Assembly: GCF_038049925.1 (NCBI RefSeq)
Contig: NZ_CP145809.1
Span: 3,630,599 to 3,694,598 of the forward strand
DNA: 64,000 nucleotides
DNA from: Georgenia sp. M64
GTDB lineage: Bacteria; Actinomycetota; Actinomycetes; Actinomycetales; Actinomycetaceae
Direction: 5' to 3'
Shown here piece by piece: positions 58,584-64,000 of this stretch (within the stretch, counting starts at the first letter, position 1; the number at the start of each line of letters is the position of its first letter). The translations under genes were made by a program, and so were the position numbers. The notes beneath the pieces were generated by a model, which was given only the letters and a program-made list of their open reading frames with translations, did not search any database and had not been told where the DNA came from.

Positions 58584-59144
58584 TCAGTCCTCGTCGGAGT
58601 CGTCCTCCACCGAGGCGGTCGGGACCCCGTCGACGCACACAGCCTGCACCTTGGTCTCGGACTCCCCGCTCCTGAACTCGACCTCGAGTTCGTCGTCGTC
58701 GGCGTCGCCGAGGTCCACGGTCCACCCCTCCACGGGTGTGGCGTAGAGCAGGTGGAGCGTCGCCCCCCGGCACACCACACCCACCTGGCCGCCGGCGACG
58801 TCCCAGGTGCGGGCGACCTCGCCGGCCCCGGTGGGCGCGTCGGTCGGGTCCGCGGTGGGCTCCGGGGTCGGGCTCGGTGTCGTGCTCGGCGTCGGGCCGG
58901 CGGTGGGATCGGGCGCCGCGGCCTCCTGGGCCGCGCGGGCCGACTCGACCTCGACCGGGCTGAGCACGCTCGCCCGGCCCTCGCCCGGGTCGACGACGGC
59001 GGCCACGGCCCACCACGCGACGACACCGACGAGCGCGACGGCGAGCACCCAGGCGAGGACCATGACCGCGCCGCCGACGCGGCTCGCGCCGTCGCCGCCG
59101 GCGCTCCCGCCCCGGCGCCCTGCGCCGCCGCCCGTCCCGTCCAT
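58584..59144 (-). CDS. Membrane-anchored acidic protein of unknown function
   Basis: This 186-residue protein has a Gly-rich N-terminus, one transmembrane segment (VMVLAWVLAVALVGVVAWWAVAAVV, about residues 28-52), a Thr/Pro-rich stalk and an outer domain with two cysteines (GVVCRGATLHLLYATPVEGWTVDL, VQAVCVDGVP). It ends in an acidic tail (SVEDDSDED). It is transcribed away from the two-component system 125 bases to the right. I do not recognise the family; a cell-surface or sensor-accessory role is possible. Confidence 0.72.
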   Translation of the reverse strand: MDGTGGGAGRRGGSAGGDGASRVGGAVMVLAWVLAVALVGVVAWWAVAAVVDPGEGRASVLSPVEVESARAAQEAAAPDPTAGPTPSTTPSPTPEPTADPTDAPTGAGEVARTWDVAGGQVGVVCRGATLHLLYATPVEGWTVDLGDADDDELEVEFRSGESETKVQAVCVDGVPTASVEDDSDED

Positions 59145-59268
59145 GCCCCCATGGTGGCGCGCCGGAGGGTTAACGCGGGGCTAAGGCGGTCACAAACCTG
59201 TCGTGGGACGCCGCCCGTCCGTCCACAACGCCCGCGACGGCCCGCTGTCATGCCCTACCGTCAGGATC

Positions 59269-59949
59269 GTGGCCGACGTGCTCATCGTCGAGGACGATGC
59301 GACGATCCGCACCGCTCTGGTGCGGGCTCTCAACGCGCGTCACCACTCCACCATGACGGCGCCCGACGCGATGAGCGGGCTGCAGTCGCTCGTCGAGCAC
59401 CGCCCCGACGTCGTCCTGCTCGACCTGGGCCTGCCCGACCTCGACGGCGCCGCCCTCCTGGCGATGATCCGGGCCGTGAGCGACGTGCCGGTCATCGTCG
59501 TCAGCGCCCGGGACGAGGGGGCGGGGATCGTCGAGCTCCTCGACGCCGGGGCGGACGACTACCTCGTCAAGCCGTTCGCCGCGGACCAGCTCGAGGCCCG
59601 CATCCGGGCGGTGCTGCGCCGCGCCGGCGCCCCGGGACCGTCCGGACCCCTCACCGTGGGCGGCCTGGTCGTGGACCCGCGCGCGCGAACCGTCCGGCTC
59701 GACGGCGCCGACATCGAGCTCAGCCCCAAGGAGTTCGACCTCCTGCACTACCTCGCCGAGCGCCCCGGCGAGGTGGTCAAGAAGCGCGAGCTGCTCGCCG
59801 AGGTGTGGAACCAGCCCTACGGCGGGGCGGACAAGACGGTCGACGTCCACCTGCACTGGCTGCGGCGCAAGCTCGGCGAGACCGGCGACGGCCCGCGCTA
59901 CCTGCACAGCGTGCGCGGCGTCGGGGTGAAGCTGGCCCCGCCGCCATGA
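59269..59949 (+). CDS. OmpR/PhoB-family response regulator
   Basis: This 226-residue regulator has a receiver domain with acidic residues in VLIVEDDATIR, phosphoacceptor Asp52 in VVLLDLGLPDLDG and Lys101 in DDYLVKPFAADQ. A winged-helix output domain follows (ELSPKEFDLLHYLAERPGEVV, TVDVHLHWLRRKLG, YLHSVRGVGVKL). GTG 59269 is chosen by homology; no well-spaced ribosome site is seen. It overlaps the kinase gene (ATGA). It probably controls the downstream ApbE/ferric-reductase operon. Confidence 0.93.
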   Translation: MADVLIVEDDATIRTALVRALNARHHSTMTAPDAMSGLQSLVEHRPDVVLLDLGLPDLDGAALLAMIRAVSDVPVIVVSARDEGAGIVELLDAGADDYLVKPFAADQLEARIRAVLRRAGAPGPSGPLTVGGLVVDPRARTVRLDGADIELSPKEFDLLHYLAERPGEVVKKRELLAEVWNQPYGGADKTVDVHLHWLRRKLGETGDGPRYLHSVRGVGVKLAPPP

Positions 59950-61241
59950 GGCGCCTGCTCCTGCTGTACGGCCTGGCGATGACGACGGCGGTGCTCGTCG
60001 CGTTCCTCATCCCGCTCGGCCTGCTCGCCCGCTCGCTGGCGCAGGAGCGCGCGCTCGACGCCGGCCGGCAGGACGCGCAGGGCGTCGCGGTCTTCGCGGG
60101 CGGGGTGGCGGCCGACGCCGCCCGGCTCGAGGCGGCCGTCCTCGACGTCAACGCCGGTCCGCGCACGACCACCGTCTTCCGCCCCGACGGGTCCCTCGTC
60201 GGGCCGGCCGCGCCGGTGTCGACGGCGGTGGAGGTGGCTGCCGGTGGTCGCGCACTGACCGCCCGGACCGACGGCGGCGTGGAGGTGCTCCTGCCCGTGG
60301 GCGGCGCCGACGGCGTGAGCGTGGTCCGCACGTTCGTCCCCGACGGCGAGCTCACCGCCGGGGTGGCGCGGGCCTGGCTGGTGCTGGCCGGGGTCGGGGC
60401 CGTCGTCCTGGCGGCGACGGTGATCGCCGCCGACCGGATCGCCGCGCGGCTCTCCCGCTCGGTGCTCGACCTCGCGACGGTCGCCGGGCGGCTCGGCGCC
60501 GGGGACCTCACCGCGCGCGTGGAGCCCTCGGGGCCGCGGGAGGTGGTCGCCGTCGGGCACGTGCTCAACGGCCTCGGCGCACGGGTGTCGGCGCTGCTGG
60601 CGGACGAGCGCGAGCTCGTCGCGGACCTCTCCCACCGGCTGCGCACCCCGATCACGGCGCTGCGCCTGGACACCGAGCTCCTCACCGACCCGGCCGAGCG
60701 CGAGCAGGTGACCGGCCACGTCGACCAGCTCGTCGCCGGGCTGGACGCCGTCCTGTGGGCGGCGCGCCACCCCGCCCACGAGGGGGCCACCGGCCGCTGC
60801 GACGCCGCCGCGGTCGTCCGCGAGCGCGGAGCGTTCTGGGAGGTGCTGGCGTCCGAGCAGGGTCGCGTGCTCACCGTCGAGGCGGCCGGCCCCGCCGAGG
60901 TGGCCGTGGGCGCGGACGAGCTCGGTGCGGCCCTGGACGTCCTCATCGACAACGTCTTCAGCCACACCCCCGACGGCACCGCCTTCCGCCTGGCGGTGGA
61001 GCGCGACGCCGTCGGGACGGGCGACGCGCCGGTGGTGAGGGTCGTCGTCGAGGACGACGGGCCCGGGTTCGTCGACCTCCGGCTGGCCGAGCGCGGTCGC
61101 TCCGGCACGGGGTCGACCGGTCTCGGGCTCGACGTCGCCAGGCGGACGGCCGAGCGGGCCGGCGGTCGCCTCGTGCTCGGAAACGGAGCGACCGGCGGAG
61201 CACGGATCGTCCTCGAGCTGCCGGCCTTGAGGGAGCCTTAA
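59946..61241 (+). CDS. Membrane sensor histidine kinase
   Basis: This 431-residue kinase has a first transmembrane helix at about residues 8-28, an extracytoplasmic sensor segment (30-140) and a second helix (143-163). A HAMP domain follows, then the dimerisation His230 in ADLSHRLRTPITALRLDTE and the ATPase motifs LIDNVFSHTPDG (N box), VVEDDGPGFVD (G1) and GSTGLGLDVARR (G2). It pairs with the overlapping response regulator. The small sensor domain is Ala/Val/Gly-rich without a recognisable ligand fold. Confidence 0.93.
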   Translation: MRRLLLLYGLAMTTAVLVAFLIPLGLLARSLAQERALDAGRQDAQGVAVFAGGVAADAARLEAAVLDVNAGPRTTTVFRPDGSLVGPAAPVSTAVEVAAGGRALTARTDGGVEVLLPVGGADGVSVVRTFVPDGELTAGVARAWLVLAGVGAVVLAATVIAADRIAARLSRSVLDLATVAGRLGAGDLTARVEPSGPREVVAVGHVLNGLGARVSALLADERELVADLSHRLRTPITALRLDTELLTDPAEREQVTGHVDQLVAGLDAVLWAARHPAHEGATGRCDAAAVVRERGAFWEVLASEQGRVLTVEAAGPAEVAVGADELGAALDVLIDNVFSHTPDGTAFRLAVERDAVGTGDAPVVRVVVEDDGPGFVDLRLAERGRSGTGSTGLGLDVARRTAERAGGRLVLGNGATGGARIVLELPALREP

Positions 61242-61326: not shown

Positions 61327-62070
61327 ATGAGCTGGAAGAAGCGCACCGCCGTCGCGGCGGCCTCGGCCGCCCTGCTGGCCACCGGCGGCTTCGCCGTCGC
61401 CAACGCCGTGGGCCCGGCCCCGGCCGAGAAGGACACGGCGCCTGTCACCCACGACGCGTCCACGAGGTCGGCGCTCGAGCAGGAGCTCGACGCCCTCATG
61501 GCTCAGGTCGACGCCATGGAGTCGGCGGCCCCGGACGGCAGTCACGACGCGTTCGACGACAAGGGCGGGGAGCGGCCCGAGGGCATCTCCGACGACACCG
61601 GCTACGACGACAACGGCGGCGACCGCCCCGACGGCATCTCCGACGACACCGGCTACGACGACAACGGCGGCGACCGCCCCGACGGCATCTCCGACGACAC
61701 CGGCTACGACGACAACGGCGGCGACCGCCCCGACGGCATCTCCGACGACACCGGCTACGACGACAACGGCGGCGACCGCCCCGACGGCATCTCCGACGAC
61801 ACCGGCTACGACGACAACGGCGGCGACCGCCCCGACGGCATCTCCGACGACACCGGCTACGACGACAACGGCGGCGACCGCCCCGACGGCATCTCCGACG
61901 ACACCGGCTACGACGACAACGGCGGCGACCGCCCCGACGGCATCTCCGACGACACCGGCTACGACGACAACGGCGGCGACCGCCCCGAGGGCGTCTCCGA
62001 CGACGATGACGACGACGCCTGGGACGACCACGGGCACGACGACGATGACGACGACTGGGACGACGACTGA
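61327..62070 (+). CDS. Exported acidic protein with 17-residue Asp-rich repeats
   Basis: This 247-residue protein starts at ATG 61327 (GAGAGGA six bases upstream). It has a Sec-type signal (KKRTAVAAASAALLATGGFAVANA) and a short helical segment (RSALEQELDALMAQVDAME). Eight units of the form GGDRPDGISDDTGYDDN and a C-terminus of Asp with Trp and His (DDDAWDDHGHDDDD) follow. Asp/Gly spacing in DDTGYDDNGGD resembles calcium-binding loops of thrombospondin-3 or RTX repeats, so metal binding outside the membrane is likely. It lies in one operon with ApbE (TGATG overlap with the next gene). Confidence 0.82.
   Translation: MSWKKRTAVAAASAALLATGGFAVANAVGPAPAEKDTAPVTHDASTRSALEQELDALMAQVDAMESAAPDGSHDAFDDKGGERPEGISDDTGYDDNGGDRPDGISDDTGYDDNGGDRPDGISDDTGYDDNGGDRPDGISDDTGYDDNGGDRPDGISDDTGYDDNGGDRPDGISDDTGYDDNGGDRPDGISDDTGYDDNGGDRPDGISDDTGYDDNGGDRPEGVSDDDDDDAWDDHGHDDDDDDWDDD
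61564..61971 (+). repeat. 51-base tandem repeat, eight units
   Basis: The unit at 61564-61614 is a slight variant. Seven units from 61615 to 61971 appear identical at the DNA level, including third codon positions. A partial divergent unit starts at 61972. The unit length is 17 codons, so expansions stay in frame. Confidence 0.95.
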
Positions 62071-62468
62071 TGTCGACCCCGCAGCGGTCGTGGGCGGCAC
62101 TCGTGCTGCTGCCTGCCACCGCCGGGCTCTTCGGCGGGACGCTGGCCTGGGCGGTCGACCACGACCCCTCGGGAGCCGCACCGCTCCCGACGACGATCTC
62201 CCCGGCCGGGTCGCTCCCGGCCGGGGAGTCCGGGGTCGCCGAGCCTGTGACCGGCGCGGTCGTCGGACCCGGCGCGGCGGACGAGGACCTCGCCGAGCTG
62301 GCCGGACGGATCTCCGAGGCCCGCGAGCGCATCGAGACGCTCCGCGCGACGCTCGAGGACCGGCCGGTCGCTCCGGCGCTCCCCGCCGCGCGGACGGGGG
62401 ACGGCACCGCCCCGGCGGCCGGCACCGACACGGTCCCGCCGGTCGACGCGACCACGGGGGCGTCATGA
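62070..62468 (+). CDS. Small membrane-anchored protein ending in an ApbE flavinylation motif
   Basis: This 132-residue protein has an N-terminal transmembrane segment or uncleaved signal (WAALVLLPATAGLFGGTLAWAV, about residues 8-29), a Pro/Gly/Ala linker and a short predicted coiled coil (DLAELAGRISEARERIETLRATLE, 73-96). A disordered tail whose last residues are VDATTGAS follows. DxxTGA(S/T) is the consensus around the threonine to which ApbE attaches FMN. There is no FMN-binding domain; the motif sits at the extreme C-terminus. The gene overlaps the repeat-protein gene before it and apbE after it, which strongly supports it being the ApbE substrate. Confidence 0.78.
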   Translation: MSTPQRSWAALVLLPATAGLFGGTLAWAVDHDPSGAAPLPTTISPAGSLPAGESGVAEPVTGAVVGPGAADEDLAELAGRISEARERIETLRATLEDRPVAPALPAARTGDGTAPAAGTDTVPPVDATTGAS

Positions 62469-63439
62469 GCGCCGTCACGACCACCGCGCCGGCCGTGCGC
62501 GAGTTCCGCTCGATGACCAGCCCCGTGCGGGTGACCCTCACCGACCCGGGCTCGGCCGCCCAGGAGCTGCTCGACGACGTCGAGACCGTCTTCACCGAGG
62601 TCGCTCGAGACTGCACACGGTTCGGCCCGGTCGGCCCGCTCGTGGCGGCCAACGCCGACCCCGGCGCCTGGCACGACGCCCCACCCGCCCTGGCCCACGC
62701 GCTGGTCCAGGCCCAGCGCGCGCACCGCGCCACCGACGGCCTGTTCGACCCGCGCGTGCTCGACGTCCTCACCGCCTGGGGCTACGACCGCACCCTGCCG
62801 TTCACCGACGACGGACCAGGACCGGTGGTCGAGCCTCGCCGCACCGCCGCGGTAGCCGGTACCGCGCCGACGCCGTGGGAACCGCGGGTCGAGCGTCGCA
62901 CGCACGGCTGGCGCATCCACCTCGGCGGCGTCCCGGTCGACCTCGGCGGCATCGGGAAGGGTCTCGCGGTCCGCTGGGCGGCGGCCTTCCTCGCCCGTGC
63001 CGGCCAGGCCTTCCTCCTCGACGCCGGGGGTGACCTCGCCGTGCGCGGCCCCGCCCCGCACGGCGGGCCCTGGCGCGTCGCGGTGGAGGACCCGGCCGGC
63101 GGTGGCCCGCGCCTCGTCCTCTCCCTCGACACCGGTGGGTGCGCGACGTCGTCGACCCGGCGTCGCCGCTGGGTCTGCGGGGAGCAGGCCGTCCACCACC
63201 TCGTCGACCCGCGCACCCGACGGCCCGGCGGCGCGGGCCTGGCCGCCGTGACGGTCGTCGCAGCCGACACCGCCTGGGCCGAGGTGTGGAGCAAGACCCT
63301 CTTCCTCGCGGGTGCCGACGGCGTGCGCGAGCGGGCGGCGGAGCTCGGGCTGGCTGCGGCGTGGGTGCGCGAGGACGGCGGCGTCGGCACCACCGCGGCC
63401 CTGGACGACCTCGTCATCTGGCGGCGGACCGATGGCTGA
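62465..63439 (+). CDS. apbE: ApbE-family FAD:protein FMN transferase
   Basis: This 324-residue protein transfers FMN from FAD to a Thr/Ser in target proteins. Motifs are TDGLFDPRVLDVLTAWGYD, VDLGGIGKGLAVRWAAAFL, AFLLDAGGDLAVRGPAP and ATSSTRRRRWV...HHLVDPRTRRP, plus the Mg-site segment VVAADTAWAEVWSKTLFLAG. No signal peptide is visible. It overlaps the tag protein before it by ATGA and the haem membrane protein after it by eight bases. Confidence 0.93.
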   Translation: MSAVTTTAPAVREFRSMTSPVRVTLTDPGSAAQELLDDVETVFTEVARDCTRFGPVGPLVAANADPGAWHDAPPALAHALVQAQRAHRATDGLFDPRVLDVLTAWGYDRTLPFTDDGPGPVVEPRRTAAVAGTAPTPWEPRVERRTHGWRIHLGGVPVDLGGIGKGLAVRWAAAFLARAGQAFLLDAGGDLAVRGPAPHGGPWRVAVEDPAGGGPRLVLSLDTGGCATSSTRRRRWVCGEQAVHHLVDPRTRRPGGAGLAAVTVVAADTAWAEVWSKTLFLAGADGVRERAAELGLAAAWVREDGGVGTTAALDDLVIWRRTDG

Positions 63440-64000
63440 GCGCGGGCGAAGGGGCCGCTCCCCCCGACCGCTCGCCCTCGCCGAGGGGGCGGCCGTCGTC
63501 CTCGTCGTCGTCGCCGGGGCGGTGTCGGTCGCCCTCGCCACGGTCCTGGTCCTCGACGTCGCGCAGGGCGAGACCGCCCTGTGGGTCCTGGGCCGGGCCA
63601 GCGGGGTGACGTCCTACGTGCTGCTCGTGGCGCTGGTGAGCACCGGCCTGCTCCTCGCCCACCCCTGGGCCCGGCGGCTGCGCCGTCCCCGGCCGACGAC
63701 GGTCCAGGCCGTGCACGTCTCCCTCGCCACGTTCACGCTCACCTTCACCGTGCTGCACGTGGCCGTCCTCGCCACCGACCCGTGGGCACAGGTCGGCTGG
63801 CGCGGCGCGCTGCTGCCGATGGCGTCGCAGTACCGCCCGGTCGCCGTCACGCTGGGGGTCCTCGCGCTCTGGTCGGGGCTGGTCACGGGGCTGACCGCGC
63901 GGCTGGCCGGGCACGCCGCCGCACGGGTGTGGTGGCCGGTGCACAAGGTCGCGGCCGGGGTGCTGGTGCTCGTGTGGGCGCACTCGGTCCTCGCGGGGAC
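63432..64000 (+). CDS. Ferric-reductase-like haem membrane protein (partial, right edge)
   Basis: At least 189 residues are open to the window edge. After a basic N-terminus there are several transmembrane helices (AVVLVVVAGAVSVALATVLVL, GVTSYVLLVALVSTGLLLA, FTLTFTVLHVAVLA, VAVTLGVLALWSGLVTGL, KVAAGVLVLVWAHSVLAG). Histidines at QAVHVSLATF, VLHVAV, WWPVHKVA and WAHSVL are spaced as in ferric reductase / MsrQ-like cytochromes that hold two haems. It overlaps the apbE gene end, so the protein probably passes electrons across the membrane to the flavinylated protein. The C-terminus is outside the window. Confidence 0.85.
   Translation, partial: MAERGRRGRSPRPLALAEGAAVVLVVVAGAVSVALATVLVLDVAQGETALWVLGRASGVTSYVLLVALVSTGLLLAHPWARRLRRPRPTTVQAVHVSLATFTLTFTVLHVAVLATDPWAQVGWRGALLPMASQYRPVAVTLGVLALWSGLVTGLTARLAGHAAARVWWPVHKVAAGVLVLVWAHSVLAG

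Follow-up and report, generated by a model that had tools for sequence, protein, structure and literature searches.

A 64,000-nucleotide stretch of the Georgenia sp. M64 genome (the window; bases 3630599-3694598 of a single-contig 4.18-Mb genome, G000) carries at its right edge an operon around apbE, the gene of a flavin adenine dinucleotide (FAD):protein flavin mononucleotide (FMN) transferase. We consider it probable that this operon provides a path for electrons through the membrane, with a leashed flavin as its outer carrier, attached by a dedicated ApbE subfamily to a serine tag at the C-terminus of a small anchored protein. It is also fairly likely, with slightly less confidence, that such carriers are widespread and undescribed in Actinomycetota and Chloroflexota: anchored arms without a domain, whose C-terminal serine would be flavinylated by an ApbE subfamily in which the metal site is remodelled, enzyme subtype and tag changing together. 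Judged from sequence comparison, they probably represent a new class of ApbE substrate with an ApbE subfamily of its own.

The tag protein and its conservation

The tag protein and the enzyme that would modify it are encoded next to each other at the following window coordinates.

62070..62468, + strand: 132-residue tag protein, with an N-terminal hydrophobic helix, a coiled coil, a linker without predicted structure and a C-terminal tag
62274..62360, + strand: predicted coiled-coil helix, residues 69-97, the best-predicted part of the tag protein (AlphaFold2)
62445..62465, + strand: DATTGAS tag, residues 126-132, with Ser132 (codon 62463-62465) as the proposed FMN acceptor
62465..63439, + strand: ApbE-family protein (FAD:protein FMN transferase; PF02424, E 1.8e-44)

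The ATG of apbE overlaps the stop of the 132-residue gene by 4 nucleotides (TCATGA). The D-x-x-[ST]-G-A-[ST] motif of ApbE substrates is present in the window protein as DATTGAS and makes up its final seven residues (PPVDATTGAS before the stop), as the first-pass annotation had read them. That annotation had placed the flavin on the threonine. According to the available text of PMC12052999, however, it is the final position of the known motif that takes the flavin, which would make Ser132, at the very C-terminus of the protein, the acceptor. Neither this protein nor the acidic and haem proteins of the same operon has a Pfam match. AlphaFold2 predicts two longer helices in the tag protein (residues 15-30 and 69-97) and no domain, with low confidence over most of the remainder, tag included. 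A Pfam scan of 28 members, the tag protein and 27 relatives, returned no match to FMN_bind (PF04205). When these 28 proteins, chosen from the group with GAS- or KAS-type tails, were aligned, Ser132 was the sole invariant column.

The 132-residue homologue in a second genome of the genus (G006) has an identical DATTGAS end. Other actinobacterial relatives (from Cellulomonas, Propionibacteriaceae and other assemblies) end in VHVVTRASG, VHVTTKASG, VQTVTKASKKP, VHTTTKAS or PQTTTKSSG, and two Chloroflexi relatives in TQATTGASG and VHATSGASGAKP. In the tails of these close relatives the serine is thus kept, and the glycine of the known motif is often lysine or arginine. A basic N-terminus ahead of the helix, acidic residues behind it and AxA-like sites (LAWA) favour a location of the C-terminus outside the cell, as far as sequence features can indicate. 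Export by the twin-arginine translocation pathway was dropped as a general rule, given that twin arginines occur in the N-region of just 30 of 103 upstream proteins and not in the window protein. Comparison strongly supports the proposal that a disordered, anchored protein carries a flavin on its C-terminal tag; flavinylation itself we infer.

How common the tag is

To survey ApbE loci, we searched the class with PF02424 (394 genomes, 213 of which match at E 1e-15) and collected 153 loci: 30 from this search, 100 further regions and 23 earlier loci. The class-search loci are the best-scoring matches rather than a random sample, and about 15 matches of a partial (125-266) type were left out. 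A haem protein is encoded downstream of ApbE in 108 of the 153 loci (hereafter haem-linked), and none of these 108 has FMN_bind alongside according to a locus profile. This profile, built from 15 sequences, missed the domain of locus L016 and of about 10 Corynebacterium-like loci, which were put in the FMN_bind group by hand; the statement on the 108 loci hence rests on the profile together with Pfam scans of the 28 tag proteins and of 15 exceptions described below.

Among the 103 anchored proteins encoded upstream of haem-linked apbE, 88 have a C-terminal [ST]x[GA][ST] followed by 0-4 residues (mean 17.0 and maximum 28 after shuffling), and 64 end exactly in [ST]x[GA]S (shuffled mean 2.2, maximum 9). 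The shuffling was done in 2000 rounds on the last 60 residues of each protein and was uncorrected for kinship, and the tag patterns were written after the first tails had been seen. Some survey tag proteins start at an internal start codon (that of the window has 121 rather than 132 residues), which affects N-termini alone. The final residue of the motif is serine in 88 of 88 proteins, though the pattern permitted threonine. At position -6, occupied by aspartate in the known motif, histidine is found 33 times, glutamine 16 times and aspartate 6 times, and the stricter [ST]GA[ST] lies near the C-terminus of 17 of the 103 proteins, compared with 88 for the loose form. Homologues next to apbE have therefore often lost the strict DxxTGAS (TKAS, TRAS and TxGS occur instead) but mostly keep a tag ending in serine, and simple decay of the motif can be rejected. 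When ApbEs are clustered at 60% identity, 55 of 63 clusters have at least one member with the pattern; at 50%, 16 of 18 do. The pattern is absent in all 8 upstream picks from the 17 loci with FMN_bind by profile. Of 28 loci with neither feature by profile, 20 had an upstream pick, and 6 of these picks have the pattern.

The 15 proteins without the pattern comprise 2 histidine kinases picked in error and 6 proteins that pass a looser version, so that 9 remain, kinases included (the others are those of L097, L114, L124, L180, L181, L186 and L191). The looser version adds ends of the type [ST]x[ST]S, such as TKSS and TKTS, and is found in 94 of the 103; it is post hoc, having been written after the misses and the Chloroflexota tails were known. 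No FMN_bind was detected in the 15 by Pfam scan.

Two loci with a weak haem match, L118 (2370-3056, - strand) and L123 (2345-3037, - strand), have longer upstream proteins of 229 and 231 residues ending in VTTYTRGS or LTTYTRGS, possibly representing the tag on a folded protein. At L149, L155, L174 and L182, which are ApbE loci without a haem match, the upstream anchored protein has a cysteine-containing tail such as CQSGNHGQSKSS.

The tag also occurs in Chloroflexota, where 87 of 251 genomes match at E 1e-20 and 30 loci were read. The pattern [ST]x[GA]S with 0-4 trailing residues is found in 12 of 26 anchored upstream proteins (shuffled mean 1.3, maximum 7) and the looser, post hoc [ST]x[GAST]S with 0-3 residues in 22 of 26 (shuffled mean 1.9, maximum 8); 24 residues were shuffled here, compared with 60 in the actinobacterial test.

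In many operons the tag gene is preceded by the gene of a second anchored protein, whose tail is often acidic or rich in histidine. Its counterpart in the window is an acidic protein with a repeat array.

61327..62070, + strand: acidic repeat protein, exported or anchored
61554..62004, + strand: 51-bp in-frame repeat, 8.8 copies, within the acidic protein

An internal [HDQ]xx[ST]GAS is present in 12 of 48 upstream companion proteins, mostly shortly ahead of the acidic tail; where more than one candidate fitted, the most acidic was taken, and the 48 doubtless include some mis-picks. Since this copy lies far from the start of apbE, it supports selection acting on the protein. Given the 12 counterparts with a TGAS motif, the acidic companion rather resembles a second carrier of flavin that lacks its tag in the window, where the protein has no [ST]GAS motif and has the repeat instead. 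The first-pass annotation had suggested that electrons pass to metal held on the aspartate repeats. Such a transfer is not supported: acidic tails are indeed common in the companions of relatives, but 12 of the 48 have a TGAS motif of their own. By eye, the 51-bp repeat array of G006 appears much shorter, which means that the length of the acidic protein varies within the genus.

The ApbE subfamily and alternative explanations

The ApbE of the window is the sole PF02424 match in its genome (152.7 bits, compared with a curated cut-off of 25.6). In a tree of ApbEs, the 107 haem-linked and 42 FMN_bind-linked enzymes separate in 148 of 149 cases (support 0.936), with L016 as the exception. Of 24 ApbEs belonging to neither group, 19 fall within the tag clade and 5 outside it. 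The residues that bear on activity are listed below, with Glu273 and Lys277 placed by alignment to solved ApbEs and counted on the printed alignment.

63149..63151, + strand: ApbE Ser229, kept in 107 of 107 haem-linked ApbEs
63197..63199, + strand: ApbE His245, kept in 107 of 107 haem-linked ApbEs and taken as the general base
63281..63283, + strand: ApbE Glu273, aligned with Asp284 of T. pallidum Ftp
63293..63295, + strand: ApbE Lys277, aligned with Thr288 of T. pallidum Ftp

Lys165, like Ser229 and His245, is invariant across the 107 haem-linked enzymes. Asp284 and Thr288 of Ftp are ligands of the metal site. At the Asp284 position all 107 haem-linked enzymes have glutamate or asparagine, and 41 of the 42 FMN_bind-linked enzymes have aspartate. 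The two positions together read N..T in 57, E..K in 36 and E..T in 14 of the 107, and D..T in 41 of the 42; among the 24 ApbEs of neither group, the 19 within the tag clade are E..K (10) or N..T (9) and the 5 outside are D..T. Enzyme type and tag type go together: E..K enzymes accompany GAS/KAS-type tags in 27 of 31 cases and N..T enzymes accompany xGS tags in 43 of 47 (P-value 1e-12, Fisher test uncorrected for kinship, with E..T enzymes and unclassed tags left out). In Chloroflexota, the pair could be read by a text pattern in 27 enzymes, 24 with E..K and 3 with D..K, so loss of the metal-site aspartate is not universal. The three D..K enzymes (L235, L237 and L238), which are possible intermediates, adjoin tag-like proteins ending in SSGGS, TTRAS and VTRTS.

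In the available text of PMC12052999, an aspartate of V. cholerae and Listeria ApbE is a member of a proposed catalytic triad with a serine and a histidine, the latter acting as general base. We take this triad aspartate to be the position altered here. The altered residue is a real active-site difference and our main reason for caution. With the metal-site aspartate replaced, ApbE activity cannot be assumed.

Several observations weigh against a flavinylated tag. The metal-site aspartate of characterised ApbEs is missing in all 107 haem-linked actinobacterial enzymes. Of the upstream picks, 15 in 103 fail the pattern, and those of L180, L181, L186 and L191 end in unrelated sequence. The motif glycine is often lysine, arginine or serine and the first aspartate often histidine or glutamine (aspartate in 6 of 88), whereas replacement of the glycine by alanine brought modification down to about half with the Klebsiella enzyme, as given in the available text of PMC12052999. 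Nearly all tag-type ApbEs lack a hydrophobic N-terminus although the tag appears exported: a hydrophobicity test finds such an N-terminus in 4 of 107 haem-linked and 0 of 42 FMN_bind-linked enzymes, and not in that of the window. The FMN_bind-linked set thus behaves alike, and modification in the cytosol before export is likely for both groups. Finally, the distribution of the operon is patchy in its close form, as a match to the window ApbE is found in 2 of 9 genomes of the genus and E 1e-25 is reached in 7 of 396 genomes of the order. The first-pass annotation had overlooked both the absent hydrophobic N-terminus and the altered metal site. In G006, apbE has an in-frame TAG at the Trp codon of the window gene (L011, 1705-1707), reflecting either a pseudogene or a sequence error, and the tag gene is open.

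The alternative that survives best, though we hold it to be unlikely, is that tag-type ApbEs have changed their chemistry, either still binding a dinucleotide but putting another group on the C-terminal serine or only hydrolysing FAD, with the tag in another role. The substitutions at the metal site (in all 107 enzymes at the Asp284 position, and to lysine in 36 at the Thr288 position) and the departure of most tags from the canonical motif fit this explanation. Against it, Lys165, Ser229 and His245 remain invariant, three Chloroflexota enzymes retain the aspartate beside tags of the same kind, the window tag is a canonical DxxTGAS, and the neighbouring electron-transfer genes suit a flavin. 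Slightly less likely again is a cytosolic C-terminus, with the flavin shuttling at the inner face between the NuoF-like protein or ferredoxin and the haem protein. Such an arrangement would agree with the absence of an export signal on ApbE in the hydrophobicity test and with the cytosolic location of FAD; the charges flanking the helix and the LAWA-type AxA sites instead favour the outside, and the ApbEs linked to FMN_bind in actinobacteria equally lack a hydrophobic N-terminus.

We regard it as improbable that ApbE serves a substrate elsewhere in the genome and that the small protein has a structural role as a subunit. Some room for this is left by the other ApbE substrate families (DUF2271, DUF3570, RnfD/NqrB, Flavodoxin_4 and FMN_red), as the searches covered FMN_bind. 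However, whole-genome PF04205 searches of G000 and G006 found no FMN_bind, with one ApbE match in each; the other 11 genomes of that search, two of which (G064 and G426) are apparently the same assembly, match FMN_bind and contain additional ApbE matches. Among 80 genomes with a haem-linked ApbE, FMN_bind is matched at E 0.01 in 43 (in 41 above the cut-off) and is not found in 37; for genomes of good quality, the figures are 36 and 32 of 68. The 80 include three genomes whose upstream proteins are true exceptions (G776, G764 and G730), and G764 and G730 are among the 37. An FMN_bind gene overlooked beyond the right edge of the window is rejected, as both the downstream genes and the genome-wide search were negative. 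That serine is the sole invariant column of the small protein also speaks for the tag. Least probable, and rejected, is a nucleotide-level artefact in which the ribosome site of apbE and the ATGA overlap would produce the C-terminal pattern: a stop/start overlap does exist in the window and glycine codons can resemble a Shine-Dalgarno sequence, but all six serine codons, AGY included, are in use at the ends of 69 Ser-ending proteins (TCG 19, TCC 19, AGC 15, TCA 11, AGT 4, TCT 1), stops of Ser-ending tag proteins lie anywhere between -115 and +25 when counted from the modelled start of apbE, trailing residues displace the motif from the stop in 24 of 88 proteins, and companions have internal copies.

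The putative electron path and known systems

A leashed flavin would be one element of a path encoded by the neighbouring genes. The gene order on the + strand, from 59203 to the window end at 64000 and for 1.7 kb further, is regulator, kinase, acidic repeat protein, 132-residue protein, ApbE, haem protein, NuoF-like protein and ferredoxin.

59203..59949, + strand: response regulator (receiver and winged helix; PF00072, PF00486)
59949..61241, + strand: sensor histidine kinase (HAMP, HisKA and HATPase; Pfam)
63432..64154, + strand: putative multi-helix haem b protein of ferric-reductase type, crossing the window edge at 64000, with invariant His95, His109, His171 and His184
64151-65456, + strand: NuoF-like protein (PF01512 and PF10589), past the window edge
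65452-65664, + strand: Fer4_15 ferredoxin, past the window edge

Coordinates and Pfam calls bear out the coupled gene set of the first-pass annotation, which had missed the continuation into the NuoF-like protein and ferredoxin. It had also allowed for a true FMN_bind gene past the right edge, and the downstream and genome-wide checks found none. Four histidines of the haem protein are invariant in 36 aligned sequences (of 102 extracted). With E values of up to 5 allowed, the protein matches no Pfam family, PF01794 (ferric reductase domain) included, and its model has a predicted local distance difference test score of 84.7. The six best Foldseek matches are chains of STEAP2, STEAP1, SpNOX and NOX5, with probability 0.99-1.00 and template modelling scores of 0.43-0.52, at weak E-values of 0.05-0.18 (none at 0.001). 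The invariant histidines and the model point to membrane helices with two putative bis-His haem sites.

We infer the modification of the tag by ApbE, its outward orientation, the presence of haems in the membrane protein and an outward flow of electrons to an acceptor. In the leashed-flavin path, the NuoF-like protein and ferredoxin in the cytosol would receive electrons from reduced nicotinamide adenine dinucleotide (phosphate), NAD(P)H, or ferredoxin; the haems of the ferric-reductase-like protein would then carry these electrons across the membrane to the FMN of the tag protein. The dedicated ApbE subfamily would link this FMN by a phosphoester to the tag serine (DATTGAS in the window, generally [ST]-x-[GA]-S). 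With no flavin-binding domain, and held by the membrane helix, coiled coil and disordered linker, the flavin may then move back and forth from the haem protein to the outside acceptor, and the acidic protein would be a companion, itself tagged in several relatives.

A homologue of the kinase adjoins the tag operons at L030, L031, L032, L034, L035, L037, L038 and L042. The product of a divergent gene at 58584-59144 (- strand) is small and exported and contains a linker rich in Ser, Thr and Pro, and proteins that look similar by eye are encoded near the tag operon at L030, L031, L035 and L037. Further downstream, at about 8150-10068 of L009 (window coordinates about 66150-68067), lie lookalikes of a SipW-type signal peptidase and of TasA/camelysin, read by eye with no family search.

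Known ApbE substrates, as described in the available texts, have their flavin within a folded domain or next to one. If the tag is flavinylated, it would be about the simplest imaginable protein flavin carrier, and the target motif of ApbE would widen to one in which serine alone is accepted and neither aspartate nor glycine is fixed. It would also provide a substrate in ApbE genomes without FMN_bind (the 37 of 80 here) and so account for part of the genomes with an 'orphan' apbE; the accessible text of PMC8238504 counts 670 genomes with ApbE and no known substrate. How ApbE works without the usual metal-site aspartate would then become a question in its own right. By the same text, the filter of that 2021 survey retained only clusters in which ApbE, FMN_bind, DUF2271 or DUF3570 had a lipidation site or a signal peptide; tag operons would normally fail it, which may explain why they went unseen there. 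In the open-access literature available, preprints excluded, we found no report of a natural ApbE substrate without a domain, which does not prove absence.

The closest known systems are the MsrQ-like actinobacterial clusters (Meheust et al. 2021), in which, from the accessible text of PMC8238504, ApbE is next to a six-helix di-haem protein and a minority (31 clusters) has NuoF-like PF10589 proteins for electron input. These clusters typically hold a gene with an FMN_bind domain, unlike the operons described here, which have a C-terminal tag without a domain and a haem protein without a Pfam match. DUF2271 and DUF3570 are likewise ApbE substrates without FMN_bind, but their domains have about 135 and 420 residues according to the same text. 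Other flavinylation sites are also known outside FMN_bind, as in the unstructured C-terminal extension of FMN_red, but adjoin a folded flavin-binding domain, and no folded domain was found here; a 2024 study describes further ApbE substrates related to known flavoproteins (PMC11334425, available text). The tag would be a naturally occurring equivalent of the engineered flavin-tag (Tong et al. 2021, via the available text of PMC12052999), a seven-residue motif that suffices for ApbE and works best at a terminus. By the same text, serine is accepted as flavin acceptor and replacement of the aspartate had minor effects in one tested protein. The flavin-tag is engineered, whereas the tag described here is natural, restricted to serine, relaxed at the aspartate and glycine positions, and paired with a different ApbE subfamily.

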